A DNA stretch of 64,000 nt from NCBI GenBank assembly GCA_903813345.2, contig CAIIXF020000012.1, forward strand, positions 27,852,684 to 27,916,683, written 5' to 3'. A model generated the notes under the pieces. The model was given only the letters and a program-made list of their open reading frames with translations, searched no databases and was not told the origin of the DNA. This DNA comes from Owenia fusiformis (Eukaryota; Annelida; Polychaeta; Sabellida; Oweniidae). The translations under genes and the position numbers were made by a program. This document shows, piece after piece, positions 11,301 through 54,336 of the stretch. Within the stretch, counting starts at the first letter, position 1, and the number at the start of each line of letters is the position of its first letter.

Positions 11301-14300
11301 GACGGGGAGTCACGTGACGGAAGTCCGATTGAGAAAGCTAGAGAAATAAGGCGCATGGGGACGACCATTATGGCGGTTGGACTCGGTGATGGAGTTAATG
11401 AGGGTCAACTACTTGCTATGGCTAGCCCACCAGATGATAGCCATGTTGTGAAGATCACATCTCTGGATAGATTGGACATCAAAAATCAAGAATTAAAATT
11501 TATCACAACTACGCTTTGCTCGGCACGTCAAGGTAATTTTTACATTTTGTTATAGAGGTACATAATCAAGGATTTTGGAATACTACCATGATTTTGATGG
11601 GTCTAAATGTACAAATGGACGTCATTGTCATTTTGATAACACGTGGTCTAAACCCTCGGGGTTACATACATAATAGTATCAGACTTTTATTGATAGGAAA
11701 AAATGCAATCAGTGATGACTACTCAATTTTATTTTAATGGTTGATAGTAAAATGATGTTTAGAAAAATACAGTCACAAAAGTAGACACGAAAACTGAATG
11801 CATATCAACGCCATACTGCACTCCATAGCCATATATGTTTGACCAGGCCTCTGCTTCCCATGTGTTTACCATCGTGTACTCTCCGTTGAAATACTTGGCA
11901 GGGTGGACATCAAGCGAACGGGTTGTTATGATATGTGGTTCAGAGTTAAAGTTGCATTCCTCACTGTCGTCTATCAAAGCGACTTCAAGAAAGATTGCTG
12001 AATTTTTCGGCATCAGTCCTGTCCATGTTCCTAATTATAAATGTGAAAACGTGGAGCAATATGAAAAAAAGTGAAATGTGAAAATACTTTTTTAGCTTTT
12101 ACATGAAAACGGAAGGGGAAGAGAAAAATAAGTATCAACTCTTCGAGAATATTTATAACGCTTGGTCGTAACCACCAAAGCAGAAGAAAACAATTCCATT
12201 TTTACTTTTTTCATAGCCTATTATTTTAGGTGACCCTTGCCGAAACTTTTGCGGGATGACTAAAAATCCTTCAGCTTTAACCTTTTATTCTTACTATGAA
12301 CATATTCATTTAAGGATAAAAATATCAAAATATAAATTTTGCCGCCAGCGATATATTAGGATTACATTTTGAAGAAAACGTCAATGCCATCGAGAGGCCT
12401 GTGAAACCGTGTCGTGACGCAATAATTACATATAAATAGGCCTATAACTTACCACCCGTTAGATTTGTATCCGCACCTGACGCAATGATATATCCAACGC
12501 CTTTGTATTTTGTATTTCGGTAATAGTTGACTTCTTGATAAGGTGTTGTTTTTGTAACCAATCTCAGATCAGCGTCCACAAGGTATCCCAAAAATGTTAA
12601 ATCTCCGAAATGAACAGCCGATCCCATATATATTTGCTTATCCGTTAGTGTGCTTATATCGATGTTGAACCTCTCTTTGACATAAGTAACAAATTCTCTG
12701 CCTAAAAAGTGCAATGGATAAGTGTATCATCAACGTCAAAATTGTTCCAGCTCTGAGTTTGATGAATTCAGTTTTAAGAAACAATAATTCTTATTGTTAC
12801 CTTTATTGACGACGTCTGCATAAGACAGTACATTTGGATCGACCTCTTTCCAGTGGTCCGTTAACCCTCCTTTTGGCGCAAGCTGAAATGCACTGCCTTT
12901 CAAATCCATAATCCCCGAATACGTCACCTTGGACGTGTAATTTCTCTGCGGTTTTCGACCACTCCTTGTTTTAGGTTTACATTTTTGACAACCCTTCTTT
13001 CCACAATCAATAGTTTGAATAAAACATAAAATAAAAATAAAAAATAGTTTCAGAAAGTTGAAACCCGTTGTTCTACTCATGACTGTACGTGACGGCTGAT
13101 CCAGCAAACGATGACACATAATATCGATAACGCCATAAATAGTAGATATACAGGGTGTTAAAAAGTATGGAATACTTCAACCGATATATGTGCATTTTTA
13201 GATGATTTACTGCTTGTAATTTACCATTTTTCAGTGACAGGGTACTGAATAAAATATACACAATTTAAGTACTTGAAGAGATTGGACGTGACATAACACC
13301 TTTTCACTACATCAATTATATTCAGGAGGGACGATAGGCGATTGTTTTCCTTGACGATAAATTTTAACTCATAACGTTGTTTCAACTATTCTTAATTAAC
13401 AAAAAACGACGTTGCTATATTTGTGAAAAATCAATTTGCATTAAAATTATCATGAATGGTTCACGGCAATTGTCTTCTACATACTTAAACTGCAACTGAT
13501 TCTATGTTACGGTTTAAAAATATACTTTTTAGACACCCCCTATTATCAACAATCAGTGCAAACGAAACAGAACAAAGAAAAGTGCTAAATTATGTTACAT
13601 CTAGCTAACGTGATGTCTTGCTGATTTGTGAATATAAAATCAGACAGACCAATTACATAAATTTTAATAAAGCCTTTTGATATAAAATATCCGTCGTAAA
13701 ATAGGCATTTAAACACAGGTAAATAAATACAACGTACGTTTGCTCTTACAATTATTCAAATAAAGGTGAAAATAATGACAATTGAGTTGCTAAATGTAAA
13801 TTATTTTAATACGTTATAACTTAATTAAAAATATCATTAAAACAGAATATTACCAAGTCGATCATATTGCATTGACAAACTTTTAAATGCGCGTAATTTA
13901 CCAAACTAGTGAAGAAGCTGAAACTTTTGGACCGTGTGTAAAGATATGTGTGAAATAGGCCCCTCTTTATTTTGAAACCATTCAAACGCATTCCGAGTCA
14001 AAATTACAAAACATTGGATGTTGAAATTTGTCGGATAGCAAACTAAAATGGCTTTAACACCCCCCCCTCTTCTAGATTTACTTAGTTTTATATCAGACAT
14101 TGAGCGTTTGGTGCCTCCCCTAATGCCTGACGATGTTTTTTGGCACGATCGAGAGTATCCAATACGCACACCGTACTATACAACGAAAGCTGTGACTTCC
14201 GGATAACCTGCTTTCTGGGATTAACCTGAAGTAGATTTAAAGACGAAAAGATTTGAACATTTTGCATCAATGTACCACTGTTTTATTGAAAGAAACAAAT

Positions 14301-17300
14301 GCAACAATTAACATCCTCCGATCACAGGGCCTCAAAATCCAGAATATATTCTTTCTTTTTACCCCCTGCGATAATTAGTTAGCATTTCCCCGATTAAGAA
14401 CTCGCAATCTGATTGGCTGTCGCAACACGGCGACAGAAATCTTGTATAAGTCATTGCGCATAATTAGATCAGGTGATTCAGTTTAATCGGGCGCTTCCAA
14501 ATTGGTTATAGCAGGGGGAAGAAGGAGGTACGGATTCTGGATACTGCTTAGGAGGATGAACAATTAATAGCTACTTAATATTCTATTTTAAACGAAAAAC
14601 AGTAAACTATTTCATCGGATGTTTAGAAAAAGACGGTAACAAAAGTAGAAATGAAAACTGAATGCATATCAACGCCATACTGCACTCCGTAGCCATATAT
14701 GTTTGACCAGGCCTCCGCTTCCCATGTGTTTACCATCGTGTACTCTCCGTTGAAATACTTGGCAGGATGGACATCAAGCGAACGGGTTGTTATGATATGT
14801 GGTACAGAGTTAAAGTTGCATTCCTCACTGTCGTCTATCAAAGCGACTTCAAAGAAGATTGCTGAATTTTTCTTCATTAACCCAGCCCATGTTCCTAAAA
14901 TGTTAAATCATGTGAATGATAACTTATTTAGCTACTACACGATTAAGAAAGAGGATGGGGAAAATTACGTAAGCATAAGCCCTTCGAGAATATTTATAAC
15001 GCCTGGTCGTAACCACCAAAGCAGAAGACAAAACTTCCATTTTGAATTGTAAAGTACACTTTTCAACACCTTTCATAGCATATTAATCAATTAACCATTA
15101 AATTGACAATGTGTAAACTTTTCAGAATTTTTGATGACTGGTTTTAGAGAAACGTGTGTTCAAAAAGTTCGCCATATCGATACACATCCTTTCAGCACAC
15201 ATAACCTCGAGGCAATTTCCAACATTGGGAATGTTTTGTTTTTAAATTCCTTCAATAACAATAAAATCACAAGCAACTGAACCAAAGAAGTTATTAATGC
15301 GTTTTAATCAATTTGACGTCATAAAACCAAATTAAGAATTGCTGATTTTAACAATTTCATTTACTTATCACTTATTTGAACAATAATACTCCGTCAAAAG
15401 TAGGCCTATGGTATTTTTGAATAGTATATGGGTAATGATTTTTAAGACAGGTCCATTTTATTTTGCAAATATACTTGCTTTAGGTATCTAGTTATCAGGT
15501 TGTCATGATTAAATCATATAAATGTTAACGTCATATTCATTGAAACAATGTAGCAATTTGGTAAAACATTGGCCACTGTGGAGCATTTTGAAACTACTAT
15601 ACTGCCATTTAACCATTATTAAACATATAACTCAATAAAAATTGCCAATGTTGGCAATTGCCTCTGGATTATTTGTGCTAAATTTATTGACACATAGTAT
15701 AGGGGAGAGTGTTCAAATCACGGGTCAAAGTTTTTATCAAAAACTTGTGTGAGGTACTACAGGGTGGGCCAAAAAAAACAATACCCAACTTTAAATCCGA
15801 ATGAAAATAGCTATGTTCAACATCATACATTGATTTATATATCATTTTAAAGGTAATCCATTTTTGAACAATTTGGTATATAACACTATGTCATGAAATC
15901 AATATTAAAGTTTTATTATGCTTATTTGGGAGGCCGGGTCGGTATTTAAGGTATCCAGATTTTAGGGAGAAAATAGTAAATCTGCGGAATAATGTTAATT
16001 TTTTATTTATAGAATATCATTTTGTTAGGTGAAAAAATGCTTGTATATTCGCATATTGTATGACTATACTTATTGTTAATGAATTTTAGTGTTGTTTATT
16101 ATCAATAAGTACTCAAAGGGGTCTGTTAAAAGACATTAAACGTATATGTGATGAGGATTATATTTTCAAACAAGATATTGCCTCATACCATAGATCTCAG
16201 GAGACATTGGCATTCCTTTGCAAACAAGGTGTCCATTTGATTGATTTCGATGCTTGGCCACCCAACAGTCCCGATGCCACATGTAATGTGTTTGATTACC
16301 ATACATGGAGCCATCTCGAGGAAATGGTACAATCAAATGCATCAAATAAACAGCATTGATGAGCTTAAACAGAATCTTAAAGTGCTGAAATGAATAGCCA
16401 CAGAAATCTCTCAATAAGGGTATTGATAGATTACGCTACCACTTGAAGCTTATTGTTGATGCATAGGGGAGGGGATGGGGGTATATTGAGCAATTGTTAA
16501 AATTGTTTAAATAAATAAAGTGTTAAATGTTATTTAACAGCACTGAATCATAAACAATAAGTTTAGCCACACAATATGCAAATATACAAGCATGTATTCA
16601 CCTAACAAAATGGTATTCTATTAATAGAAAATTAACATTATTCCGCAGATTCACTATTTTCTCCCTTAAATCTGGAGACCTTAAATAGCAACCCGGCCTC
16701 CCAAATAAGTATAATAAAACTTTACTATTGATTTCATGACATAGTGTTATATACCAAATTGTTTGAAATTGTATAACCTTTAAAATGATATGTAAGTCAA
16801 TGTACCATGATGAATGTAACTAATTTAATCCTGATTTGAAGTTGGGTATTGTTTTTTTTGGCCCACCCTGTATATATATGCTTTTGAAAAAAATTGAAAG
16901 AAAATTTGAATTTTTTTTTATTATTTTAGGAAAATTAGAAACCATCGAATATCACTTTTGAAACCATTGAATATCACTTTTTTAAATGAATATCGAATAT
17001 CACTTTTGGAACCATTGAATATCACTTTTTTAAATGACTTACCACCTGTAAGATTTGTATCTGCATCCGCTACAACGATATATCCGACGCTTTTGAATTT
17101 TGGATTTCGGTAATAATTGACTTCTTGACAAGGTGTTGTTTTTGTAACCAATCTCATATCAGCGACTCCGAGGTATCCCCAAAATGTTAAATCTTCAAAA
17201 TGAACGGCCGATCCCATGTATAATTGCTCGTCCGTTAGTGTGCTTATATTGATGTTAAACCTTTCCTTGACGTATGCAACAAATTCTCTTCCTTGAAAGT

Positions 17301-20300
17301 GCAATGCATAAGTATTTATTCATCAACGTCAATGTGTTTTCCCTTCTGGTTTTAAGAATTTAATTTCAAGAAACATTAGAGAGATTTTGCAACTCACTTG
17401 TAGCATGTTTATTATTCCCGTATAACTTCTGAAGCGTTTGCTTACATGTACGTCATCATTAATTGCGCAGCTCTATACGCCCATAAGTGTGATATTTTTA
17501 CAATTGTCATTTGGACGTATTGAGCTGCGCAATAAATGATGACGTATTCAAACACTTGATAAATTATACGTTACACGGGAATAATAAACATGCTACAAGT
17601 GAGTTGCGAAATCTCTACTAATTCCAATTATTACCTTTATTGACGACGTCCGCATTAGACAGCACACCTGGATCGACCTCTTTCCAGTGGTTCGTTAACC
17701 CTCCTTCTGGCGCAACTCGATATACACTGCCCTTGAAATCCATAATTCTCGAATACGTCACCTTGGACGTGTAGTTTCCCTGCGGTTTTCGATCACTCCT
17801 TGTTTTAGGTCTACATTTTTGACAGGCCTTCTTCCCACAATCCATAGTTTGTATAAAACATAGAAGTAAAATTGTGGATAGTTTCAGAAAGTTGAAACCC
17901 GTTGCTCTATTCATGACTGCGCTGATCCAAGGAACATGGCTGATCCAGGGAACGCTTGCAGATAATTTCGATAACGCCATAAATAGTAGTAATATACAGG
18001 GTATTAAAAAGTATGGAATACTTCAACCGATATATGATTGTGCATTTTTAGATGACTTACTGCTTGTAATTTACCATTTTACAGTGACAGGGTACTGAAA
18101 AATATATACACAATTTAAATACTTGAAGAGATTAGACGCGACATGACATGTTTTTGACTACAAACTGCATACTTGTTTGCCAACTCTGTGTTATGGTTGG
18201 ATAATATACTTTTTAGACACCCTTTGTTATGAACAATCAAACGAAACTAAACAAATCTTGTTACATCTAACTAACGTGATTTTTTGCTGATTTGTAAATA
18301 TAAAACCGGACAGACCTTTTGACATTGAATAACGACTTTTGATTAAATCATCCTTCGTAAAATACGCATTTAAACACAAAGTCATATAAATAAATACAAC
18401 GTTCGTTTGCTCTTACAATTATTCAAATAAGAAAATGAAAAATTTATATTTAATGTGCTAAACTTAAATAATTTTAAATATGTGAGTACTTAATTAAAAA
18501 CACCACTAAAAGAATATTACACCGTCTATTCATTGACCAACTTTTAAATGCGCATATACGTAATCAAAATGATCTAAGAAACTGGAACTTTTGAACCGTT
18601 TGTAAAAATATGTGTAACATAGATCCGACTTATGTGATCCACCAGATCATTGATTGTTTATTTTTATACTTTATATTTTCAGCTTGTAATAATAACCTCG
18701 ATCTGATTTTTGCATTAGACGGTCATTCCTCTACCACCGAACAAAACTTCAACAAAATGAAGAAATTTGTTATAGATGTGGTTCGCAACTTTCCTATATC
18801 CAGTACGCATGCGCGGGTGGGTGTTATGACATATGGACGGGGAACTGCAATTAATTTCTATTTGAACAACTATAGCGATCAAGAAAAGATCACAGAAGAG
18901 ATAGACAAGATACAATATCCTGGAAGTGGAAGTCGGGACCTCGTAGACGGTGAGTGCTTAAATAAAACCAAACTTTTCCATTTTTTCCTTCCCAAGGTTT
19001 GCAATATTGTATGTCTTCGCACTTCGTTATTTGGCCTTAAATATTTGTATAAGTGGTTATTTTACATCAAATCTCGATCATAAGATTAAGATGATTTAAT
19101 AATCAGGTTATACTGTTTTTTACTTGTAACATTGAAGGTTTGAGGCGTATTCGAACCGAGATGTTTTCCAATACTCGCGGAAATCGAGATGACGCCATCT
19201 ACAAAAACGTCGGCGTTTTTATTACAACAGGATTGGCTGATGATGGCGACACATCCGACCAAGCTAATGAAGCATTACAGGCCGGTATAACACTGCTTCA
19301 TGTGGACATTAGTGTTGGTAGGTACTTTGTTGATGACACCGTGCAAAGTGATTTGGACACTTGGCAGTATACATTTTAGCTTGAACTAGAAAATAAAGCA
19401 CAATTTTGGGAATGTCAAATTACTTAGAAATGTAGTCAAATTTATGACACCAAAATACAACATTTCAAACTACAAGTTTGGCTCTCCAAGTATTTTTTCT
19501 CGTGACATCAGTGTGAATGCCCCTATTTATGTATAATATTAAAATTTAATCACTTCGAATAACCCATTCTCCCATTCTGTTCAGCCAAGCTACCCTATGG
19601 ACACGGTATAATATGTTCAGAGTAAAATATCAAACAATTTACTTTTTGGACATTTGTTGAAATAGCAGTTCATATTGATAGAAAAAATGACAAATTAAAG
19701 TTTGAAATTATCAAAAAAGATATTTTGATAGGGAACCCAAGGCTGACTATCAATCCATTAGCGAAGAAACCTTTCTATAGATACATGTACAATGTGACTG
19801 GGTATGATGCCTTAAATACTATCGTAGCCTCATTAGCTGGTGAAATATGCAGTGCTTACCAAGGTGAGTTACAATTGTTGCAATCTTTGATCTTCTCAAA
19901 GACGTCTGATATCGGTCAATATGTTACAGTGTTATGCTTCATAATGCGAAAGATTCTCACAAAGACAACATCTTGAGTGGCACCATCTTTCTTATTTTCT
20001 TGTTCAAATTAGTTTGGTTTAAATGATTTGGTACCATGTATTTGTGCGTTTGTGTATGTGGAACTTCAGATGTACTTGGGTCACCAAAATATTCTGACTC
20101 CTACCAATATATTCTAATTTGCATTAGGTCCAAATACTTTAATTTGGTAGCGCAGAGCAGTTGAATTACCATATGCGTCAAATTAGAACACCATATTTAA
20201 ACAGTACTTAACTGGTTATCTTATCTTGTATGTTATCCTGACAGGCTGCTCCACCACGGCCTACCACATTACCCCCTACAATAGGAACGGCATTGTCTCT

Positions 20301-23300
20301 CCAAGGGTGGGGCGACTGGCGGTTAACATGAACGGACAGTGGAACTCTGTATGTGACGATAGATGGGACAATAAAGAAGCGAGCATAGTTTGTAAATGCT
20401 TGTATCCTGGAGAAACGTAAGCAGGCACTAATTATTTGTCAAATGGAAAAATAAGTAAGAGAATTTGAAATGAGCATTTTAAAAGCACCACTACTCCTAA
20501 GAGCATTAAATGTCAGTTGTAAAATAATTTTAGTATTCAAGTAATTCGACTAAATCAATTTCACGAAGTCATAAATAGCATTAAGATACTAAACGATGGC
20601 CCAGCTCATTTCAATTAATTGACATTTTAGAGCAGACGAGTGGAAATTTCTTGCTTACAAATACCATGATCCAACTATTAATAATACTGAACTGGCTATT
20701 GGATTGGATGAGCTTAGTTGCACAGATAGTGACGTAGACATCCGGGGATGTAGTCACGTGGACAGTTTATCTCAGAACTGCAACCAAGACGAGGCTGCCG
20801 GTATAGATTGTAACGGAAATGACGCACACATTCCAGAAGGTAAGTACGGGTTTCTACGGATGTAGTACCACCCCCTGATAATAGCAGACATCCAAAGGAC
20901 AGACTCATGACGTAGTAAATTTACGGTACTTATGATCCGTGTATGTTTTCTGACTCTTAACACTAATCTTAGGGTAATGCATAATGCTTTAGCAAATTGA
21001 ACACTCGTTATTGGTGTTGCCCACCGTTTATGGTAAAGGGTATACAGGTTGAGCGTTTGGTAAAGGGTATACAGGTTGAGCGTTTATGGTAAAGGGTATA
21101 CAGGTTGAGCGTTTATGGTAAAGGGTATACAGGTTGAGCGTTTATGGTAAAGGGTATACAGGCTGAGCGTTTATGGTAAAGGGTACACAGGTTGAGCTGT
21201 AAAGTGTCTGTCTGTTTATGTAGCAATAGTGTAGTATAACTCACATTTGTAAAAAGGAATTTTTATTTTGACAAATTAAGTTTACCCTTTATTGGGAAAG
21301 TTTCGGGATCTTCTATTAATCTATTAGTTAATGGAGAAATGCATTACATGCATACTCAAATCATTCGGTTGAATGAACAACATTGTTTTGTATTTGGATT
21401 ACCTCGGTCAAGTATAAGCATGGTCTTATAAAATGTCCTGTAAATGAAACAAACCATTTTGGACTCATACATGCGATAAGCGTGAATATTAGTAAATCTA
21501 TCTAAAGAATAAGTTATTGAAAAACAATATCAAAAAGTCATCTTGCTTTTTCAGTTCCAAACCCAGAAATTGTATGTAACTCTTCTGCGATGGAGGTGTG
21601 TTTCAATATCAATGACGTCATACCAAGTGTCATAGCGATGGTAAAACAATGCAGCAGTGTTGTTCGAATTGATAACGCAACCCACGCATGCTTCAAAGTC
21701 CCACTTGGGAAGTGCGACCCTTTTATGACAGTAGGTTTATTTACATGTGATCTAATAATATATAATTTAGTTTTTACGCATTATGTTAGCATTAATCACT
21801 AAGAAATGATGATTGCATTTTTACCGTTTCTTGTGAACAACTATGACATCTTTGTATCTTAATTCCCTGCTATTAAGCGATTGTAATAATTTACTAGAAA
21901 AATATAAGCCTGCAACCATGCATAGTTTTAATTTAGATTGAATCTTTTCTTCAAACAAGGATTTCATGATATAATTTATTCAACAGACGGATTCAGTAAG
22001 CAAGAGGTACTGCTACACTATTGGTCAAAGTTCTGACCAACCAGTGGGTTCGCCGATTCTTTTCGAACAATGGAACGTCACTTCCTGTTGTACAGTGGCT
22101 AAAAACGGAAGTGTCTCCCAGGGTTACGGTACATATATCGAAGAAAAAATATTCAACGTTTCTGCAAATTATTCGTTTGATATGAACTGTTATTTCAACA
22201 ATACGTTCGAAGGGGACCCGATTCAGTTTCCAATTACTATTTTAACCGGCCAGGACATCTACTGCAAGGTTTGCGTCGAGAGTCAAGACAATTCGATAAT
22301 GATTGTAGTTCCCGGATGTCAGTTACTAGGCACTGCAACAGGGCCACCAACTTACCCATTCTTGGCTGACAAGTTAGTAAATTTTTGAAATTTTAAATAT
22401 TCGTTTGCAGACAGCATGCGTATCCAATTTTTTATATGCGTATATGCGTTCTGCGTCATATTGTAAGTTAGAATATTCCTACTAAACCGCTTGTTCTTGC
22501 GTTCCAGGTGCCCTATTTCCTCTGCATTGAACGTTGTTTATTATCCCATGGCAGAGACGTGCTGGGGCTTCAAGTTTAAGTCAATCAAGTTCCAAGGCTT
22601 TGACGAGCTTTTTGTTAATTGTGACACATACGCGTGTGATAGATTTCTTGATAGCAAAGACTATTGTGACAGAACGTGTCAAAGCTCTGGTTCACTTGGT
22701 CGGAAAAAACGAGATACTATTGAGCGCTTTAAAAGTGATGATGATCGTCGTTTGAAACGAGATGTTGATCAAGATGGCGATATCTTTACACCGTCTAGAT
22801 TCGTTAGCTTAGAGAAGGGTCCTCTATATGTGAAAGATGATGGCCTTGGAAATATAATAAAAGCAGACCTCGATGGAATTCCTTTACAAATTACAGGAAG
22901 GGAGCTTACAGGTTAGACTAAATTACTTTTTTACCATTGAGTTATTTTTTCAAAAAATAGTATTATTGTATATAGTACATATGGCTACATAGGAATGAGA
23001 GGTCGTTAAAAAAATTAGCGCATAGATGGTTGCATATTCTCTAATGTTAGGAATTGTGACCATGATAACAAGCACGATGCAGTATGAAAAAACGAACTTA
23101 CGAATTCTTAACGTAACGAAGGTTCTGTTAAAGACTAATGCTTCTAAATTGGTTAACGTATTCATTTGTAGAACAAGAAAGACTTGACTGGTTTGGTAAA
23201 CAGAATATGTCTGATAAGGACAGCGATGGGCTTCAGCATAATACAGGTGATAACCATACTCCTCCTTTCCATAATTAATAAATGATGCAATAGAATCGTA

Positions 23301-26349: not shown

Positions 26350-29300
26350 GCACTCTTCAATTAATCATTGATATTGTTTGGTTTAAAACATCTCATATTT
26401 ACAGGAAACTAATTAATTCACTAAAACTGATCGATTTTGTACTGACTTGGGGTCAACATGACCGGTGAGTCGAATGAGAATGATGTCAGAAAGACTTGCA
26501 GATATGTCAAGCGTTTGATCTAAAAGTGAGGCAAAACATGACTAAATGCTCGTCTATTCTATGAACTGTTGATTATTCTTAATTAGGTCAAGAATGGACA
26601 ATCTTGCATATCTTGTATTATTTTGCGAGTACTGTAATCTAACATGAAATTCGAAATTTGTGAACAATACTTTGCACATATCGTCCCATTATTTCCACAT
26701 TGTTATAACTCACTCTTTGCAGGTCTTAAGATAAGTATACTATCTTTCTCAATTTATCACGAGGAATTCATTTCTGAGGACCATTTTAATGGATCTCATC
26801 TCCTTTTGGAGATATCCAGTGCCACATTATTATAAGGGCAAAATGAGGAAAAAACTTTAGGCCCACCTTGTCATATCCGCAGCAGAGCCAATCAGATTAC
26901 ATAATTTTGATCATGTGACTTATAGCTATGATCAGGTGGCTAATAGTTATAACAATGCGGAAATAATGGGACAATCACTTACTAGTATACTTTGTAGGTA
27001 ATTAACAAAGGAGATCATAAATCATGACACTGTGTACATGTAGTACAAACAAAAGAAAGCAGATTTGCACATTATTTGTAAATAAAATAAAAGTTCATTC
27101 AGTGAACTTAATCAATTAGTGACCTGTTATACATTTACCAGTCAAAATGGAACATGAGTAATATTCTGTATAATTAGATGGACAGACTAATGGTATACGG
27201 ACAAAAACAAAATGGAAGTGATTAAAAATTCAGTTTTCAAGGTTATTTTGTTATTTCAAAAACAAGAAACCATAAAAAGAGATGTGTTATATTAATTGTC
27301 CATCAGTTATTTTTGCTCTGCAAGGCTTACATATATACATGATTACCAAAACGAAAAAAGAAGTTTCTAAAAATTACTACTTAGAGTCAGAAGTTATGAA
27401 GCCCCGAGTCTTCAACCTCTAATTTCTCAATATCAGCAAAAATGCAATTATGGCAATGTGGAAATATGGGGACGATATGGCGTTCATGATCAACTATGAA
27501 ACGCTTACTCCCATGGTACTATATATCAAAATGTACCTGTTCATTTTGGGGTTCGATTGATCTAAATCAAATTATGTGGACTCGGGTTACTTTAAGATAT
27601 CAGCGTCCATTAATTGTAACTCGTATTTGCTACCTTTTGGTCACTTCGGAGATGACGGGTACATGTCGACGTTGGAACTATTTTTTACATACATCGCTAT
27701 TTTCGTTATTAAATGAACTCTTCTACTTTATTTTGATACCAAATAATGGCATAATTTGTACCCTAGAAGCAAACCATGGCGTTATTTAGAACAAGTTTAA
27801 CTGTACTAGATGGGGCGGATGGATATTGAACCTTACACCTTTGCACAACTAACTTATAAAAACTTCAACTTTGACAACAATGACATATATTGTTGAAAAT
27901 GCCTGGGATGGGTACGCATGACAATAAAGCTCCATTGTAATGACACCACAGCTAGTTCAGGTGAAAACGTATGGTAATAGTAATAATTGTTACTGTTTGT
28001 TGTTGTTTATAACTCATCTGGTACGTGTGACTTTTTCCCTTGTGTTAAGATGGCTGTTAGTTAGCTGTTAAAGGCCATAAAGGATTGAGTTGATCAAGGG
28101 TTGAGACGACTTGGGTTCAAGTTGACTAAGGGTTGAGATGACTTGGGGTTAACTTGACTAAGGGTTGACTTGACTTGGGGTCGAGTTGACTAAGGGGTGA
28201 GTTGACTTGGGGTCGAGTTGACTAAGGGGTGAGTTGACTTGGGGTCGAGTTGACTAAGGGGTGAGTTGACTTGGGGTCGAGTTGACTAAGGGGTGAGTTG
28301 ACTTGGGGCCGAGTTGACTAAGGGGTGAGTTGACTTGGGTTGAGTTGACTTGGGGTTGAGTTGACCAGCAAGCAATATAACGATGTGATATAAATAAGGT
28401 TGCAGAATATCTTAATATCATATTTATGGTACAATACCATTATTTCTTCTTGATTTCTTGATTGAAATGGCATCACGTGTTTATCTAGTATAAAGATCAT
28501 CTTTAAACCTAGTTCAAGTATTTTGTTTCATTTATCTTTTTTTTATCTATGCTCATACGAAATAACTAATCACTGGGAAATGGTTCGCGAATAAGTGCAA
28601 ACGTTAAATATTTAAGTAAAATATTGCCTTTTCGTGTACATTACTTTTTGATTACATCATTGTAAGATCTCATTAAGATTATCTAGTACTAAGTAAGTTC
28701 GTGTATCGAAGACTGTCAATAAACAGCACACTATTCTCGAACCTCATTTCATTTCATAATAGCATGTGCATACCCACTTTTGCAGATCCCCCGTTGATTT
28801 GCATCACATTTATACCATATCATATTATATGTCTTAGCTTATAATGCTCTTTGAGCCTAGCCAAATTGTATTGTATTGTGCTAACAAATTAATATCATAA
28901 TATACCGTATAATATGGCATTTTTTTATTAATGATTTATTTCCATGTATAACAAACATATAACATACACATGTCTGAGGCTTTTCAGAACTGCATTAAAA
29001 GCCACGAGATGATATAGCATCATATCATGTTTCATATTCTCATCATATATCATATCATGTATTTATCTATCTAAAAACTCAAAACTGTCATCTGACATGT
29101 TCCAATGTCTGGTTATATTCATCTCATCTTCATATTCATCACTGGAATTTGTTTTGCTTACAAATAATTTTTATTTATTACATAAATGAATTTTATCATG
29201 TTTTATTATATTTTTCATTCCTAGACAACGCCGTTAAACGGCAGTAAACCGTATCAATAATTAACTGAAATATCGGGAACAAAAAACCTGTGAAGAAAAA

Positions 29301-30138: not shown

Positions 30139-32979
30139 ATGAGGGGAGCAACACTTTACGAACAGTTGTGGTTAATCACAATACTGATAATTTGTATTCT
30201 ACAAGCGTTCGATTGTGGTAAGCCTGTAGGGTGTAGCAGTTGTACAAAAAAGAAGAACAGTCGTGGTAAATTGTTGAATCTTGGTACAGGACGGGTAACG
30301 TTTTCCGCGATAATGGATTCCAATGCTGATGCTATTCACCGAGAGCCAAAAGAGAATTTGGCGAAGGTTTGGAAGAGCATTGATCGAGATGTAAGGACCG
30401 ATGAAGACGTCATTCAGAAAGGTGATATACGTTCTGATCTGTCGACGTCTTATTTTCTAACAATTTCTATAGTCGATCTTGCATTATTTAGCCGATTAAA
30501 TCAAAGCAATTGCTTCAATATACAAAATTAGTTCGAACCCAATTAAGGAAAACATTTTGTTATATAAAGTACAACGTGTATTATTACAAATGTTAAAGGT
30601 CCATGTGCAGTATGGCAAGTGATTTTAGACAGCCATATCTTTCACCATGAGTACTTTCTGGATATAAATACAGTGGTTTTTTTTATCAAAACAATATGTT
30701 TTCTTCAAAGTGAAGTCCTCTTCAAAACTAGACTTTCAATACCATTCTACTTTTAAAAATATTTTAGACCCCTTGTTGAACAATCTCTTCATGCAATAAA
30801 AATTACAAAAATAATATCATCTTTTGAGCAAATAAGTTTAACATTTTGAAATTTTTTTGACTATTTATATTTTTTTCGAATTGTTCGAGTGATATTTTTT
30901 ATCATCATGGGGACTTCAATTTGAAATAAAACATATTATTTTAATGAACACCACTGTATTTATGCCCAGAAAATACTCATTGTGATAGATATGACCGTCT
31001 AAAATCACTTACTGCACGTGGAGCTTTTCATGAAGTTTTGTTTTCTAGTTTTAAGGTCAGACTTGGCTTTGGAATTTGTTTACAATTTTTAAAAGTAGAC
31101 TTCTTAATATTTTGATTGATAATCTAGGTACACTATGCATCTGTTGTGCAAAAATGAATGATTTAGACCACGCGTGGAATGAGTTATGTTTATCTGAAAA
31201 AAGCACATGGTCATGAAATTCCCCAAAAATTACAGACGACCCTTAAATCAAAACAACCGAGAAAAAATTATTGCATCACAAATCCATTTGGAATAGAGGA
31301 ATTCCATCAGTCACGTGTTTGCCTTATACGTACTACTGTAATTGCAAAGTATAGCAAAAATGCTCATTCCTAATTCATTTAGATAGATTTAGTTTTCGAT
31401 ACGAATGAATTACAAGACTTTATAACTGAAGCAATTGATATGTTTAAATATATATATCATTGTTAACAATTCATCCCGTAGACGATGGAGTCACGTTTTC
31501 AACAAATTGGTCATCGCGACGAGGACTTGTATTCTTGGAAATCGCCCCGAGTGATTTTAATGTACTGTACATGAGTTGAAAATAACTTGTTGTTCTAATG
31601 TAAAACGAGAAATACTTGGTCCAAAAATACCCCAGTCAAATGACGCTGTCCAAAATTGTTTGCAATAGTATACTGGGTCATTAATAATTGGTTTTAATTT
31701 GTAGGGAGAGAATTCATTGCATATGTCAAAGATAGGTTCGATGTCGATATGACTATAATAACTGATGAACAGTTGCAGCTTGGTTTATATGTACACTTTG
31801 GGAATTTGACGTTCATGGGGTTCGTTATTGATTTTGACCTTCGAGTCGTTACAGAAACAACACCACTACAACACGTCACCCATTACCGGAACACAAAATA
31901 CATATCAACTGGATATGTTATTGTTGCAAACAAGAATACAATACTCGAAGGTGGTAAGTTATTTTAATAGGCCATATTCTCCCCTTCAATGCCGGTATAA
32001 AATTAGATAATACAAGGGGCATCTTATAAAGTTTAAGATGCTGAATTTGATGTTTTAATGTCTGTAACATAAACGCTGTTGCTAGGGGTTATAGTTTCCC
32101 TGGCAACCATATTTTTTGCCTAGTGATTGGCCTAAAATATATTTATGATCATATGTTTCAATATTTTTGGTAATTTATATTGTTTAACACCTTGAATTCT
32201 GAAATATTGCATATCCACTGATTAGATAATATTCAGAAACGTTACAAAGAGAATGATCAAGGAACTTAGAGGCTCGCGGTAAAACTATGCAATCTAAAAT
32301 GAAATATCTAATACTCAGGCTGTGCTATTACATAATAACATTTATTATTTCTCCGAGTGATAATCAGCATTCGAATGGTCAGTCATGTATCATGTGACTT
32401 AAAATACCGCAGGGTATTTCATTTATCTGTAAATCATATATATGAAGGGTGTATTTTTTCAAAAATGAATACAGGTAACGAATGTGACGTTGACTATTGG
32501 AATGTAGAAAATATACCAATGGAAAGATAAACGTGTCTTCGCATCGATAGACTGGAATATTTGGTAATCCAAGGGATACACCCTCAGAAATTCAAATACA
32601 GGTATTGCACTCAATAAAATTCAATATTTGTTATATATTCCATGGTTACGGTCAATACAGAAAATGTACCGCATTCTTTAATTTTTTCTCGTGTATTTAT
32701 ATTTCAGGTAAATATACAGGATTCATGGCGAAGAATTCGGCAATATATACAGAAACAGCTATGATAGACAGTAATGAATGCGATTTTGAGGAAGAGCCCC
32801 ACATTCTCATAACGCGCACACTCGACGCTCATCCCGCCAATTTCTATGACGGCAAATATACTGAGGTCAATACATGGGAAGGAGAAGTATGGTCTAGCAA
32901 GTACGGACACGGATTGCAATACGGCATTGATATGCACCCAATGTATGTCATGACTATCGTGAATGTATTTCCTAAATAA
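30139..32979 (+). CDS. Secreted family protein, member C
   Basis: Exons 30139-30421, 31705-31953 and 32708-32979 (283+249+272 nt), both introns phase 1, give 267 residues. A signal peptide (M-R-G-A-T-L-Y-E-Q-L-W-L-I-T-I-L-I-I-C) precedes A-F-D-C-G-K, a C-S-S-C-T-K pair and V-T-F-S-A-I-M-D. The middle exon opens G-R-E-F-I-A-Y-V-K-D-R-F and keeps the 84-residue length; the last exon has N-E-C-D-F, T-R-T-L-D-A-H-P-A and N-T-W-E-G-E-V-W. It is clearly more diverged from A and B than they are from each other. Intron 1 carries an inverted-repeat element. AATAAA overlaps the stop codon region. The start was set at the ATG just before the hydrophobic core. Function unknown. Confidence 0.85.
30596..31028. 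mobile_element. Inverted-repeat element in intron 1 of member C
   Basis: Arms of about 80 bp: the left runs from CATGTGCAGTA through GTGATTTTAGACAGCCATAT to AATACAGTGGT, and the right is its reverse complement at about 30945-31022. It is about 430 bp and non-coding. Confidence 0.75.
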
Positions 32980-35576: not shown

Positions 35577-36760
35577 ACAAATCATAACATGATGATATTT
35601 TTTCATAAAATATTTCTTCAAGAAATTCAATTGAAGGCTCAAGATAAAACGAGCTAATTTAGGTGAAAACCCTTACATGATGATGTGTTTTCATGACTTC
35701 TTTCATAAAATTCCATCAAGGGGTGAAAATAAAATGATCGAATTTAAGTGATTTAAGGACCACGAGGATAGGTTTTCTTGGATATTTTCTATGAAATCCC
35801 ATCCAGTGGTCAAGGTAAAATTTTTATTTGGTATATTTGGTCACGTGTTCGAACCCATAGAACCATATAGGAACGTCATTTTGAATGTTACGTGATAAAT
35901 CCATATAAGGCTTTTAGAACAATGTGGGGAAAGATGAGGGGAAACCCCTGACACCTGTTCACGATTTTATCCGAACGTTCATCGGATCATTTCGGTTTTT
36001 ATGCACTTCATTATTTTACCGAAGTTTGCCGATTCGATTCGTCGTATTTCGGAATATTGGGGACAATTTTATACTCCATTGGGAGTATTTTTAATCTACT
36101 TCTTATTACGAAGATTCCCGAACCTTGTTCGGATTAATCCGGATTTTCTGACCTACTTCATCTACCGAGATTTAACGAGTTTACATTCGGCTCATTTCGG
36201 AATCCTGGTGACAATTTTATACTCCATTGGAGTATTTTTGATCTACTTCTCTGGATTTTTGATCTACTTCTTATGACGAAGATTCCCGAATCAGTTCGGA
36301 TTAATCCGGATTTTCTGACCTACTTTATCTACCGAGATTTAACGAGTTAACATTCGTCTCATTTCGGAATCCTGGTGACAATTTTATACTCCATTGGAGT
36401 ATTTTTGATCTACTTTTTCTGGATTTTGCCCTACTTATTATAAGTTGACAGCAAGCAAATCAAAAAGTTCGCCATGAACGGGTTTCGATCGACTAACCTA
36501 GAGAGCGGAAGCTAAACACGCTAGCCATGAGGCTAACGTTCACCTGTGTGAGATGATAAAAGTATCATATATTTATACCGAGCGTCAATTTAGAATGATC
36601 TTCGCTTTTGACTCCACTTAGATACAACTCGTCAGTTGTATCCAGAATAGGTGAACGCCTATGGTGTTAGTGAATAACCAAATCCCAGGCAAGTTCGTAT
36701 CCCACCGTGATATGTTATTTTTGCTTTATTAATACGACAGAAAGGAGCAAGGTGTAGGTT
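35577..36760 (+). repeat. Left arm of a large inverted repeat
   Basis: It starts ACAAATCATAACATGATGAT and contains, in order: a degenerate minisatellite built on TTTTATGAAA motifs (to about 35840); a block around ACTCCATTGGAGTATTTTTG that is itself repeated in tandem (about 36070-36430); a segment with AACGGGTTTCGATCGAC and CCATGAGGCTAAC (36440-36600); and TAATACGACAGAAAGGAGCA at its end. All parts recur in reverse orientation between 43.2 and 49.5 kb. The frame at 36001-36276 is a by-product of this repeat, because the same frame recurs at 48869-49117 in reverse. Confidence 0.75.
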
Positions 36761-46081: not shown

Positions 46082-46088
46082 CGTCCGG
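46016..46088. repeat. (CCGT)n-(CAGT)n microsatellite
   Basis: A run of CCGT tetranucleotides passes into CAGT tetranucleotides and back. It is preceded by CGAACGAAGTTCGG, itself nearly palindromic. It is inside the transposon. Confidence 0.9.
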
Positions 46089-46375: not shown

Positions 46376-46963
46376 TTAGATCTTTCTGAAGTATAGCTTT
46401 ATTATACTCAAATGAAAGGCAATTAAGAGTAGATTGCAACAAAGGTCATCTTTATAGCGAACAGAAAGTTTGTTCTTCAGGAAGAGCTGTTTATATTTGG
46501 GGTTATAGTCACTCAGATTGTTTTCCTTCATATGTGCCTGATACAGCTCATGGACATGTTCAAGTGTTTCAACTCCATCGGTTTGAAGGACATGTTCATC
46601 TTTATGCTTACATATGACGTCAAATGATGTTATTAAAACCTTTTCCTCTTCATTTATCGTTCGTACTTTCTTGCACAAGTAATTTCTTCTACAGGTATTA
46701 TGGTACCAAGCTTCTGCTGATATCAAACAGCGTCCTCCTATTTTTGCATGTAAAGTCCAGTCTTCTTGGGCTTTCACTGCATTTATTATTGATGTTGATT
46801 TTGTTAATGATTCTTTTGTGTTTCCTTTGAGATATTTCAGATCTTTTTCACAAAAGAGGCACTTGTTTTGTTCAAAAAGGTTGCTTTGGCGTAATTTCTT
46901 ACTATGACATTCTTCACCAATTGCTAGAGCAGAGGATCTTTTCCTCAAACTTCTCTCGGACAT
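46376..46963 (-). CDS. Transposon-encoded Cys/His protein, 195 residues
   Basis: The only sizeable frame in the 3.9-kb element. It starts M-S-E-R-S-L-R-K-R-S-S and has a basic N-terminus, then C-L-F-C-E-K-D, D-W-T-L-H-A-K-I-G-G-R-C-L-I-S-A-E-A-W-Y-H-N-T-C-R-R-N-Y. The spacing C-x2-C ... E-A-x-Y-H-x2-C recalls the N-terminal zinc-binding region of repeat-associated proteins found in many invertebrate and fish genomes, whose family name I cannot give with certainty. No catalytic domain follows: the frame ends in a hydrophobic 15-residue tail, so it is probably a truncated transposase or accessory protein. A further exon is possible. Confidence 0.6.
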   Translation of the reverse strand: MSERSLRKRSSALAIGEECHSKKLRQSNLFEQNKCLFCEKDLKYLKGNTKESLTKSTSIINAVKAQEDWTLHAKIGGRCLISAEAWYHNTCRRNYLCKKVRTINEEEKVLITSFDVICKHKDEHVLQTDGVETLEHVHELYQAHMKENNLSDYNPKYKQLFLKNKLSVRYKDDLCCNLLLIAFHLSIIKLYFRKI

Positions 46964-47164
46964 GATATATACGTAACAACACTAATACATTGATTTACAG
47001 GGTTCTACTCAGTTGCATGATATATGGAAAAAAGTATATATATTGGAAGGGCAACACTCCACGATGCAATAATGGAAACTAAACGATGGTGTATTAAATC
47101 ACCTACCTTAACTGAAACGTAAAAGTAAAAAATAAGGAATAACTGTGTATATAGCACAACTGCA

Positions 47165-47560
47165 ACCGCAGCACACTATCTGGAACCACTGTCCAAAATC
47201 ACTCACAACCGCACCGCACTGTCTGGAACCACTGTCCAAAATCACTCAATCTATTAACACAGAGTCACTAAACTTTATCTGTATGCAGCACACATAAACA
47301 ATGTGTATTAGATCACCTACCTTGACTTCACCCTAAAATTATAAAATAAAGAAAATAAAGAAAGCCTCTGCATCTACACAGTTACGCAACCGCACCGCAC
47401 TGTCTGGAACCACTGTCCAAAATCACTCGCAACTGACCGTAATCAGTTAGGCAACCGCACCGCACTGTTTGGAACCACTGTCCAAAATCACTCTCCTGAC
47501 TAAAATCACTCACCTGTCCAAAATCACTCACTGTATTTACCCACAATCACTCACCTCTAT
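47165..47560. repeat. Irregular repeat array inside the transposon
   Basis: CTGGAACCACTGTCCAAAAT followed by CACTC recurs four times, three of them preceded by AACCGCACCGCACTG, with extra half-units (CCTGTCCAAAATCACTCAC) at the right edge. It lies about 200-600 bp upstream of the 195-residue frame. It could be transposase-binding or promoter repeats. Confidence 0.75.
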
Positions 47561-49542
47561 CTAGATGTAGCACAGCTTAACCGCACAACGTATATCTATT
47601 TCATCAGGTCTGCACAGCTAATCAAGAAGGCATGAACTGTGGTAATTGAAGCATAACATTGACAACAAAAGCTCATATCAACAACTGATTTATCATTGCA
47701 TATACAACTTATTCCTAGGAATGCAGATTTAATTTGCCATCACATTAATGAAGTCTAAATTCTAATTGCAACATTTAAATAATGCTCTAAATTTGGTATT
47801 ATTGTTATATCAAATAGGAATTATTAACTATTTTTATGAATAACATTATTTTCTATCTGGATATTAAGCATGACGGGAATCACTCAAACATGTATTTCAT
47901 AAAGATATCAGGTTGATTTAAAAAGAAACAAATATATAGGTAAGCATGTGAGTGAGTGATAAATTAGTATCATCCAGAATGAGATAAATGAATTTATTTA
48001 ATATAAACAATAATTTATTTGATTTTGTTAAAATGCGTTTTCCTCAAAACTTCATTCCAAGATGCAAATTAAGCACACATAAATAAAATCACATTGATGA
48101 CCTCACAAAGCCATGAATGTATATTTGAAGACAAAGTTTATATCCTTAATTAGATAAAATACCCCATACCCCTTTAATGGTCAACTGTTTTAACAAATGA
48201 TTTCTGTTACCATAACAACCAGCAGACCAACAATAGCGAAACTTCCCATGATGGTTAAACATCATAACTATACTAATATCTGTTAATATCAGAATGAATA
48301 GTCATATATTTATTCACAAACTTGGGTACAAATAAAGTTTTCTTGGGAAAAGTGCCACGTCCCCTTTTACACATTTTTGCATAGTCATATTATCATCGGC
48401 AAATATAATTAATTGTATGGCTAAAATAAAACATCAATTGATTTAGTATTATCAACCATACTCTAAATAAGTTTTCTAATATGTTTTCATGCTAATTCCT
48501 CCCAATTCCAGGAAAATATTATGTGCTTTGTCTCAGGGTAGGTCTTAAATTTTTACGAAAATGTGTACTTTTTTAACAAGCGATTTCTGTTACCATAGCA
48601 ACCAGCTAACCAATATTGATGAAACTGCTCACAATGATAGGACATGATAAGAAGATGATTACCTGTAAATTTCAAGATGATTGGTTGGATACTCTAGGAA
48701 TTATACATGGCTTTCCTAGGACCCCCCTTAAAATAACACCAGGGGGTATAAATCTGCATATTTCCAAAACGCTGAAAAACTAGACACCAATAGTTTCAGA
48801 ATCAATGTAGAATAATAAACCACAAAAAACCTACATAAAGAGAAATTTGCTACTTTTCAAAACCACTTTTACATTATGCTCATCCAGTAAATGGAGTATA
48901 AAATTGTCACCAGGATTCCGAAATGAGCCGAATGTGAACTCGTTAAATCTCGGTAGATGAAGTAGGTCAGAAAATCCGGATTAATCCGAACAAGGTTCGG
49001 GAATCTTCGTAATAAGAAGTAGATTAAAAATACTCCCAATGGAGTATAAAATTGTCCCCAATATTCCGAAATACGACGAATCGAATCGGCAAACTTCGGT
49101 AAAATAATGAAGTGCATAAAAACCGAAATGATCCGATGAACGTTCGGATAAAATCGTGAACAGGTGTCAGGGGTTTCCCCTCATCTTTCCCCACATTGTT
49201 CTAAAAGCCTTATATGGATTTATCACGTAACATTCAAAATGACGTTCCTATATGGTTCTATGGGTTCGAACACGTGACCAAATATACCAAATAAAAATTT
49301 TACCTTGACCACTGGATGGGATTTCATAGAAAATATCCAAGAAAACCTATCCTCGTGATCCTTAAATCACTTAAATTCGATCATTTTATTTTCACCCCTT
49401 GATGGAATTTTATGAAAGAAGTCATGAAAACACATCATCATGTAAGGGTTTTCACCTAAATTAGCTCGTTTTATCTTGAGCCTTCAATTGAATTTCTTGA
49501 AGAAATATTTTATGAAAAAATATCATCATGTTATGATTTGTA

Positions 49543-49982
49543 TTTAAATAAGACCGTTTCATCTAAATACTTGGATAATATTTCATAAAAAATGCACTTT
49601 AAAATTTTTCAGAATTTGCCTTAATTTATCAATGTAATGAAAGTATAAGATTAACTCTCAAATAGCGTTCTATTTTAACCTTTTTATTGAAATCAATACA
49701 GGACTCGCTCTCTAAATATCCAATAAAAATTCAACCCTTGGATGTGATTTCGTTGGAAAAAAAATATGTCAAGTCCAGAATCAAATGATTTGTCCAGAAC
49801 CTCTTAAGATGCTGTTTATTTTAACAGTGACCTGCGTATTAACAATAGAAAGTATTATGGTTGGCTGACTCTTTTTCAGATACTGTTTATTTTAAACAAC
49901 GGACAAAGAAACACAATGATAAGTTACAGTTGTAACATTTATTGTTGCAAATGACGTTGAACAAGTACATCATAACATACAA
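49543..49982. other. 3' flank of member D
   Basis: It includes more of the degenerate TTTCATGAAA-type repeat (to about 49790) and then unique sequence. AATAAA on the minus strand (49938-49943) is a likely polyadenylation signal for member D, about 40 bp past its stop. Confidence 0.5.
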
Positions 49983-52900
49983 TCATGGGTTGCTGAATAT
50001 GTTAACGAAGGCATAAACGTAAACTCCATGCATATCGACGGAGTATTGCACACCATGACCATAAATACTAGACCAGACTTCCGCCTCCCATGTGTTGGCT
50101 CCAACGTATACACCATTTACCATTTTAGCAGGGTGACTGCCCAGTGGGCGTGTTTTAATTATGTGTAGCTGCTCATCAAAGTCACATTCATTGCTGTCTA
50201 TTCTTGCAATTTCCGCATAGATTACTGACTGATTTGGCATAAGTCCAGTATATTCTCCTGAAAACAATTGAAGACGATTAAGGCTTAGTAATTTTTAAGT
50301 ATAATTGGGAATCCGATCTTTAATTTGCAGCGTATTATGTTTCGCACTTAGCTTATATTTTATCAGATACAATATGTTTCTATAGTATCAACCGATTTTT
50401 AGAGTGCAACGTATGATTCGCATTTAGCCCATACCTTGTCAGAAAAAGTTAATATAATTCAACCTTTCTCTAGTGTGCAAATTATCCTATTATGCGTTAT
50501 ATACGTCCATATAATTATGTGAACTCAGTCCATATTTTGTCAGACAAAGGGTAAAAAGCAATAGATTATAATACAAAATTAACCTCCTGTGAGAAAAACA
50601 TCATCGACTGCAAAAAGAGCATATCCAAGACCTTTGTATTTTGTATTGCTGTAGTAATTCACTTGTTGCGAAGGGGTTGTTTTGGAAATGAGTCTTACAT
50701 CAGCATCTATCAGGTATCCAAAAAAGGATAATTTTCCAAAGGTCCTTTGCGATCCCATAAGTAGTTCATCGTCAGTTAGTGTGCTTATATCGACGTTAAA
50801 CCTTTGTTTAACATACGCAACAAATTCCCGACCTAAATGTGAAAGGGAAAACTGAAATCACAATTCTAAATTTTGATACTGTAGAATTGAAATACATAGA
50901 ATACTGTGCCCGAAATAACATTTTCAAGATTTTGATTTAATAACACTCTATGTATATGATGATGTTAAATTATTACATCAACAACGAAATGGTGACTACT
51001 ACTTTTTTCAAGGCCCGACTGCGTCGCTAACATGCTAAATATAAGAGTTAGCTGACGTTTGGGAGTCTGACTTACCTTCTAAAGGTTAGAACCCGAATCT
51101 TAATGAAACCATATCACCTTTGTTCCGTCAACCATGGAGCATTTGCCACAACATCCAAGAGGTAAATCATGGATCGAGAAAATGAATGATTTCCTTGTAA
51201 GTTCCGGAAGTTTCAATACGAAAAATTACCGAACATATGTGAAAACCGAATATTTGTTCGTTGTTTTCACGATTTACAGGTTCGTTTGTTCTTCAATGTT
51301 TTGGTCTAAATTATAAAGCATCACCAACAGGTCTTACTCTATTCATCGGCTAATACAGCAGACGGCTCATATTTCTACGTAGCATTTCATTCAGACCAAT
51401 AGTGGGAGTGTAGATCACGCAGTTTCGTTCGTTGCGTACTTCACTTGAAATTAGTAATTTAAATATTGACTACTTCACCCAGCTTGGCGGATGTAGAACA
51501 TTGCTTAATATTCTTTTAATTTTCACACCAGACATGCTTGGTTGACACGTCAACAAAGTAAAGTTCAAGGGTCAATGCGTTATTTCGTGATAACTACAAC
51601 GCCTTCCCGGAAGTCAACATTGATGAAAAATGAAAAAGTCGGAAAAGCATTTACGCTAATTTCTATCAAATGCTATGTTTATGCATCATCATCGACGCAA
51701 CAAAGGTGATATGGTTTCATTAAGATTCGGGTTCTAACCTTTAGAAGGTAAGTCAGACTCCCAAACGTCAGCTAACTCTTATATTTAGCATGTTAGCGAC
51801 GCAGTCAGGCCTTGAAAAAAGTAGTACATGTTAATACGTGTGATGTCAGAATATAAAACGAATACTGCGTCCCATGGCGTGACACAAAGAGTATATTTAC
51901 ACTCTACTATACCTAACCCCTAAAAATGCTACTGATACTCTGCTTGTCTAATTGTATTGTTTAGTATATTTTTAAAATTACCTTATAAACAGTTAACAGT
52001 CGTCCGATAAACCATTCATAAGGAAAGGACACATAAAAACAAATAATATAATCATTGCTAATAAGCCAAATGGGTTGCTCATGAACACCAAATGCAAGGT
52101 ATGGTAGGGTGATTTAGGTCGCGTGTGGAAATCAGATCGCTATAAAGGATACATACCCATTACCAAACTAACAGCAAAAGAGTGCAATAGAATTCTAGAA
52201 GTACTCGTATGATATCTCTAAGATGATTTCTATCTTTATCATTTAGTCTAGACACTCTAATTGCAAAATTTGTTTCTAGTTTTTAGTTTATTTTGATAAA
52301 AAATATCAATCAATCTTGTTATTGTTGTTACTTTAAGATATACACTATTTTAAGATTAAACTGATCTAGGATTACATGTATTCTATATATGAACATTACA
52401 GCTATTATCCTTTGACCTCAGAGCATACATGAAGCAAAAGTTCCATTGCTATTTACCTAGCTATATAAAATAGTTATTTTGAAAAACACTGCTAATAAGG
52501 TTAGAGTCAATCACATTTCATTCATATGTTATTCTTTGATTAATGCCAAATACAAATAATGTGAATTGGAAAATGGCTAGATTATTAACAAATTATATAT
52601 TGAATACTCTGTGTACCAACGAGTGTTGTCATGGTCGTTGTCATGTTCTTATTATGAAAGAAATGTTCCATTGTCTTGCGGCCTTGGTATGATGTGATAA
52701 TGTTCCTGAACTACGAGGGAATGGATATAACTTTGTTTTCTTTATGTGTTAGATCATAGTTCTAGATAATTGTGGTTTGCTGTCCTCATGACTCGTTGCA
52801 TCCGTAAAATGTCAACACTGAAAGTGGTGATAATGTATTGCTATAGTCTGCAACTTTTTTTGGACGATGTTCTGAGTTCGGCGTCTGTAAAGGTTTTCTT

Positions 52901-54336
52901 TCGGCGTCTGCAGCAATTTCCATTCGGCGTCTGTAACAGTTTGCGATTAACGTACACGAGAGTAATATTTTGTCAAAATGTATGGCTAATTGAAACTCAC
53001 CTTCTGCGATAACATCTGCCTCAGTCTTGACATCTGGATCTACCATCTTCCAGGGTTCTAGTAGGCCTTGTTCAAGTGTAAAGTTATATGGAGAGCCTTT
53101 AGAATCAACAATCCCTGAAAACGTCACCTGCGATGTGAAGTTACCCTGTGTGCTTTCTCTTCGATTTCTTGGAATACATTTCTCTGTAATGGCATGGTAA
53201 ACATGTGTACTATTCAAACTATTCTAAATATGTTTCAACTCCAAGAACTTTTTAGATTCTGAATACTTTTTTTGGTTTTCTATTACTGTTCTAACTCTGC
53301 GCTATATATGGCTATCCAATACTATATGTTTAAAGTGAAGTATTTAGAGGTACCATGTATGTTACTATAAGTTGACATATGTCCTGGTATATACCTAACG
53401 TGTGCCAAAATAAGCTGACCTTGTAATGTCCCTTATCAGGTATTGGAAACGCATAGAGTATTTCGTAGAGGACACAGGAAATACAAATATCGCCATCTTC
53501 TTTGAAAAATAGGTAGGAATATTCTTATTTGGCGGTTAACGTATTTTTAATATTTCCTAATCTGACATTTAGATTCATTCCAATCCAAACACACCGAGGA
53601 TACACTCAACTGTCATAAAGCTCCAATTGTTCAATACTCACGGGATATCATCGACTTATTTGATCAATGTTGCGGATCAGGTCGTTTCGACAAGTAATTT
53701 TAATACTTTCACACAATATTTTTTACTGAAAATATAGTACTTATTTGTTGCGATAAATGAACCAATACATGCAATGACAATGTCAATCATGCTTCCGTTC
53801 AAAATTTGTCGGAAATCTTTTATGATCCATTACGAAGTTACAAAAAAGGCTCTCCCACACTGACCATAGTTAATCTTTATTAAATAAGGGAATGTGTACC
53901 TTTTTGAAGTAAGAACTATTTCAACTTGTAAAAACGAACTGCTCCTCCACATCGATCAAATTAGTTATGACATCCCGTGATAATATTGGGTTAACCAAGG
54001 CATTTTTGTTCAAAATCGAAATGTTTATTTGGGTATCCCCAAATTTTAAAAGATCTAGGTGGGTAAATGTCAATTAATGACAATGGGATGTTACCCCACC
54101 GTACTGGGAACGTAATGGGCGTATCAATGGCAGGTTATTTTGAGTTTTAGATATCTAACATATCAAATAATTTGGCATTTGAGAAATTGCATTCGTGATT
54201 ATATCACAATATTACCCTCTTCACTTGAACTCCCACTGTGCCTGCTACCCTTCCCTTTACTACGGCTGCTAGTTTCCCCGGCACACATACAGACGTCTAA
54301 CAGTACCAGTAGTAATAACGCTGTGAATACTTTCAT
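49983..54336 (-). CDS. Secreted family protein, member D
   Basis: Exons in coding order: 54336-54216, 53183-53001, 50832-50584, 50257-49983 (121+183+249+275 nt), giving 275 residues. A signal peptide (M-K-V-F-T-A-L-L-L-L-V-L-L-D-V-C-M-C-A-G) and a Ser/Lys-rich linker sit on a separate first exon not seen in A-C. It joins in phase 1 to E-K-C-I-P-R-N-R-R, then Q-G-N-F-T-S-Q-V-T-F-S-G. The 84-residue middle exon (G-R-E-F-V-A-Y-V-K-Q-R-F) and the last exon (N-E-C-D-F, N-T-W-E-A-E-V-W-S-S-I-Y-G-H-G) match the family. It is the most diverged member. A mariner element begins 32 bp upstream of the ATG. The intron before the middle exon holds an inverted-repeat element. The first exon is assigned from signal, phase and position. 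Function unknown. Confidence 0.78.
50997..51826. mobile_element. Inverted-repeat transposon in an intron of member D
   Basis: Arms of about 130 bp: TACTACTTTTTTCAAGGCC to AACCATATCACCTTTGTT at left, and the reverse complement (51695-51826) at right. The 570-bp centre has a 60-residue frame with no recognised domain. It is non-autonomous. No target duplication is clear. Confidence 0.8.
52872..52945. repeat. Short TTCGGCGTCTG tandem repeat
   Basis: Three copies of a 24-26 bp unit beginning TTCGGCGTCTG, about 60 bp inside the intron from the donor of exon 2 of member D. Confidence 0.65.

Follow-up and report, generated by a model that had tools for sequence, protein, structure and literature searches.

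Introduction

Orphan secreted families expanded by lineage occur in marine invertebrates. The closest described systems are the shell-matrix and the tube or mucus secretomes, which hold small proteins with a signal peptide, diverged paralogues and no named domain, and the cement of the sandcastle worm, a tube-building annelid that secretes basic and acidic proteins of opposite charge. The genome of the annelid Owenia fusiformis is given as 505.8 Mb in 12 chromosome-scale scaffolds (PMC9977687), in a paper that also describes transcriptomes of the life cycle.

The present analysis concerns one 64,000-nt stretch of Owenia fusiformis DNA (C12:27852684-27916683), referred to throughout as the window, and the genome that contains it (498,259,871 bases in 525 contigs). 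The window carries four genes, A to D, and the comparisons given below support well the view that they are members of a large, diverged and unnamed secreted family in this genome. Among the papers listed in literature searches on Owenia and annelids, no description of such a family was found.

Gene structure and predicted proteins

The rebuilt models place four related genes in the window (Table 1), in agreement with a preliminary description of this DNA, and have GT-AG introns and open frames throughout. The predicted proteins comprise 266 (A), 266 (B), 267 (C) and 275 (D) amino acids, encoded by exons of 280-249-272 nt in A and B, 283-249-272 nt in C and 121-183-249-275 nt in D. The constant length of the middle exon, which the preliminary description had also reported, was recovered in 4/4 genes, and this exon is flanked by phase-1 introns; it holds 83 codons' worth of sequence, and the split codons at both ends account for the 84 residues counted earlier. 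Exon 1 of D is divided in two, and its first part is the least certain of the exons because it shows little likeness to A-C beyond the signal peptide.

Table 1. Exons of the four genes, in window coordinates
Gene	Exon	Position	Strand	Content	Source
A	1	12801..13080	-	signal peptide, basic Cys tail, VTYSGIMD	from DNA
A	2	12453..12701	-	249 nt, phase 1-1	from DNA
A	3	11759..12030	-	ends with stop	from DNA
B	1	17635..17914	-		from DNA
B	2	17043..17291	-	249 nt	from DNA
B	3	14623..14894	-		from DNA
C	1	30139..30421	+		from DNA
C	2	31705..31953	+	249 nt	from DNA
C	3	32708..32979	+		from DNA
D	1a	54216..54336	-	signal peptide, Ser/Lys-rich tail; least certain exon	from DNA
D	1b	53001..53183	-	resembles exon 1 of A-C, 3' part	from DNA
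D	2	50584..50832	-	249 nt; weak donor GTTAAT	from DNA
D	3	49983..50257	-		from DNA

Identity to A is 84% for B, 51% for C and 54% for D. For exons 2 and 3, single-exon tblastn between different members gave E values from 9e-24 to 6e-55, and for exon 1 from 5e-7 to 4e-47; with values so low, the similarity is not due to chance. In a profile scan of all open reading frames of at least 25 amino acids in the window, every exon of A-D (13 in all) was recovered and, apart from one chance match (E 0.98), nothing else, so that no fifth member was found.

The proteins share one anatomy. Exon 1 provides a hydrophobic start, a basic tail that contains either one Cys or two, and the block VTYSGIMD; GREF opens exon 2, and exon 3 closes the protein. 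The core of about 215 residues extends across the three coding blocks. The hydrophobic start has a best 12-residue Kyte-Doolittle mean of 2.3-3.2, and nowhere else in A-D was a stretch of strong hydrophobicity found (best 19-residue mean 0.87-1.32). By hydropathy, all four proteins therefore have a signal-peptide-like N-terminus and no further membrane span, and with this secretion-like start they are predicted to be secreted. With tail and core borders and cleavage sites placed by eye, without SignalP, the net charge of the tail is +10 in A, +8 in B, +7 in C and +3 in D, and that of the core is -9, -8, -12 and -11, respectively.

These results uphold the signal peptide and the VTYSGIMD-like motif of the preliminary description and qualify three of its other features. 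The Cys/Lys-rich N-terminus stands as a basic tail with at least one Cys in every member, but this tail is weak in D, where it has a single Cys and the lowest charge. The HPAK motif is present in A, B and D, but C reads HPAN, and NTWEAEVW is exact only in D, with NTWEAEAW in A and B and NTWEGEVW in C.

A dispersed multigene family

The four genes had been presented as a four-member family, a count that searches of the whole genome overturned. Member A as the query gave 77 exon matches, a relative on contig C8 gave 39, and three further searches gave 46, 22 and 74 matches, which overlap. At least 56 exon-2-type places are present in 28 clusters on 10 contigs, spread across most of the chromosomes, where clusters allow a gap of at most 250 kb and the places were sorted by hand and include some that are partial or contain internal stops. 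Contig C3 was added by exon-3 matches alone. Exon-1 relatives lie upstream of the distant members L012, L018 and L020 (E ~1e-22 with an iterated profile) and, more weakly, upstream of L025 (E 0.003) and L011 (E 0.05); the hydrophobic starts of distant members were judged by eye.

A tree of 24 genes, which are those of the at least 56 places with both parts in the fetched loci, comprises about five diverged groups. A and B form a tandem duplicate (support 0.99), D joins three copies on C7 (support 0.97), and C joins copies on C5 and C4 (support 0.94). The placement of D and C indicates that the window cluster is not the product of one local burst: the local expansion proposed earlier applies to A and B, but C and D group with copies on other chromosomes. 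Either an old cluster seeded the other chromosomes or copies gathered in the window. The positions and the tree together show that the family grew through both tandem and dispersed duplication, and a local expansion to four members is ruled out by the tree and by the number and spread of the places.

Exon boundaries across the family

In the fetched loci, the exon 2 and exon 3 blocks keep the same start phase across the superfamily. AG is found at the expected site in 37/37 distinct complete exon-2 starts and in 24/24 complete exon-3 starts (27 exon-3 rows in all). Of the 34 complete exon-2 domains, 23 have GT where the donor is expected, and the rest are mostly of a one-frame type; L031, counted among the 23, is itself of this type, and its GT is therefore attributed to chance.

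In the one-frame subfamily, the exon-2 and exon-3 parts are joined in a single open frame, with no intron between them. This subfamily is represented by 16 near full-length matches, nine on C8, two each on C1, C5 and C10 and one on C12. Such an uninterrupted arrangement suggests exon 2 to be a portion of a larger domain and not a domain alone.

The length of exon 2 ranges from 81 to 95 amino acids over 34 distinct complete domains in the fetched loci, with 84 amino acids, including split codons, in the A-type genes. The indel-free 84-residue exon of the preliminary description is thus a property of the A-type subfamily, and given this range it does not characterise the family in general. A short protein repeat, GRNTRAEIIRA, is present in L043 (2874-3406, +) and in L029 (191-406). 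In a one-frame member on C1 (60.24 Mb), it lies directly downstream of an exon-1-like block, and it is perhaps a tandem repeat of the end of exon 1.

Relation to named families

The preliminary description had recognised no named domain in these proteins, and the profile searches against Pfam, NCBIfam and PDB sequences, which could have revealed a strong match to a named family, gave no significant one. In Pfam, the four window proteins matched no family up to E 10, nine distant open reading frames gave a best match to DUF6140 (E 0.13, under its cut-off), and 12 two-exon domains gave two chance-level matches (E 0.14 and 0.23). NCBIfam gave no match for 4/4 window proteins. In profile searches of the PDB, the best E values were 0.86 for the four full proteins, 0.55 for 21 exon-2 domains and 0.099 for the 12 two-exon domains, the last to 37 residues of an alanine racemase (3co8), and all three were taken as chance. 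Outside animals, searches with two short peptide patterns each in prokaryote and viral contigs gave 88 and 28 matches, of which tblastn confirmed 0, and no relative was found in plasmids and phages with one query, the 170-aa C8 relative.

Structure prediction, a check suggested earlier, was carried out with AlphaFold2 on the window exons singly, with four related rows each, and gave models of too low quality to set against known folds such as the jelly-roll, C1q/TNF or lectin folds. Exon 2 (mean pLDDT 55.8) was modelled with helices at 2-12 and 21-26 followed by strands, and exon 3 (mean pLDDT 42.8) mostly as strands with one helix. The poor models would fit each exon being a partial domain, but an alignment of four related rows often yields poor models in any case.

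A-D could be a divergent branch of a named extracellular domain, such as a jelly-roll or another beta-sandwich, that lies beyond the reach of sequence profiles, which we consider unlikely, if not strongly so. Small animal domains frequently lose sequence similarity, and the size of the proteins, their secretion-like start and their conserved Gly and Tyr suit a beta-rich domain, as do the strands that follow the helices in the weak exon-2 model and dominate the weak exon-3 model. Against this stands the lack of a significant match in all three collections, for the window proteins, the distant open reading frames and the two-exon domains in Pfam, for the window proteins in NCBIfam and for every query set in the PDB.

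Constraint on the recent duplicate

A and B align in four blocks with 75-86% DNA identity, which cover the exons and parts of the introns, and the similar DNA reaches about 0.85 kb upstream of A; a fifth row of this comparison, at 100%, is the same DNA present in both of the compared stretches. Exon identity is 87.5% for exon 1, 85.5% for exon 2 and 93.3% for exon 3, and dN/dS, as ratios of computed values, is 0.51, 0.20 and 0.13 for the same exons. These ratios are below 1 in all exons, indicating purifying selection on the pair, which is least on exon 1. In other pairs, dS is at least 1 or not computable, with synonymous change near or past saturation, so that dN/dS there says little. Intron 2 of A measures only 422 nt, and intron 2 of B carries an element with 325-nt inverted arms of 89% identity (window 15758-16872).

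Many clustered, diverged and secreted-looking paralogues would also be expected of innate-immune recognition proteins or effectors multiplied against many microbes. This role is improbable for A-D, as the recent pair has a dN/dS below 1 in all three exons, with no excess of amino-acid change, and Pfam found no known immune domain in these proteins.

Invariant residues

Alignment of the 24 genes revealed few columns that are invariant in 24/24: G1, R2, D22, R51 and Y66, and Y-G-x-G in exon 3. HPAK and NTWEAEVW are not conserved beyond the A-type group and mark one subfamily. A Cys in exon 3 is present in 22 of the 23 aligned genes with a residue at that column. The stretch that contains it is deleted in L030 (C5, 3.54 Mb), and in L040 (C5, 13.74 Mb) the Cys of exon 3 is missing although three Cys remain close to the tail, for which reason a disulphide between the tail and exon 3 was rejected as an established fact.

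The invariant columns include R, D, R and Y, which could have a catalytic role, but it is very improbable that A-D are secreted enzymes whose active site is unusual, as the invariant set is small for an enzyme and largely Gly and Tyr, no family match was found, and HPAK and NTWEAEVW are not conserved outside the A-type group.

Genomic setting

The plus strand of the window carries, at 10518-22912, an RKKR site and exons that encode two vWA domains, an SRCR domain and a ZP-C domain; these exons probably form one gene, judging from their order and strand. If they do, A and B sit antisense in its intron (~11534-18684). A PAN-domain open reading frame is present near the right end of the window, and an AbfB-like (arabinofuranosidase sugar-binding) domain, here in an animal genome, lies at 62445-62942 (+) and has at least 25 matches in the same genome. 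These neighbours of A-D are also of extracellular kinds, which does not prove a common job. Separately, the haemoglobin-linker family Eryth_link_C, which is typical of annelids, gave three matches above its cut-off.

The window further contains a 652-nt inverted repeat (35577-36228 and 48890-49541), whose arms are 100% complementary and lie 12.7 kb apart, with additional inverted repeats between them, and which is perhaps a young mobile element. A tandem array at 28050-28369 has a 16-nt period with an apparent 32-nt alternation. No tRNA or Rfam family was found in scans of the window.

Discussion

Any function given to A-D is a guess at present. The reading we tentatively favour, while holding it short of probable, is that of a secreted, non-enzymatic protein with two binding parts, a tail for polyanionic glycans or for partner proteins and a core for a ligand, whose paralogues vary the properties of mucus, tube or surface. 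Once secreted, the protein would lie on the body surface, in mucus or in the tube wall, where the basic tail would anchor it to its polyanionic or protein partners. A disulphide linking a Cys of the tail to that of exon 3 may stabilise the fold, the acidic core would act as a folded module that binds a ligand, and binding specificities or material properties could differ among the many paralogues. Against this reading, the basic tail is weak in D, and between A and B exons 2 and 3, which form most of the core, are under stronger constraint than exon 1, which gives no support for a fast-changing binding face. The alternatives weighed above partly overlap with this proposal, since a known fold could also act in mucus.

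A bolder form, to which we give only a slim chance, is that A-D represent a novel extracellular domain of animals that has a fold of its own and extends over the phase-1 junctions, and that more than 50 genes for it in a tube-building annelid supply a dipolar glue or matrix for tube and mucus. If the proteins do prove to be tube or mucus matrix components, genes would be assigned to such material.

Orphan families of such a sort are common in animal genomes, and the evidence on A-D is therefore of moderate interest. It adds a sizeable unnamed secreted family whose gene anatomy is clear and in which subfamilies and invariant residues can be told, and this family can become a family model and be looked up in expression data.

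Compared with known systems, A-D resemble the families of Pfam-A, NCBIfam and the PDB only at chance level, with DUF6140 and 3co8 as the nearest cases. They are like the shell-matrix and the tube or mucus secretomes in the signal peptide, small size, diverged paralogues and absence of a named domain, and differ from them in a core that is not of low complexity. With the sandcastle worm cement proteins, as these are described, A-D share secretion, the presence of opposite charges and an origin in a tube-building annelid, but A-D differ in carrying both charges on one chain with a non-repeat core.
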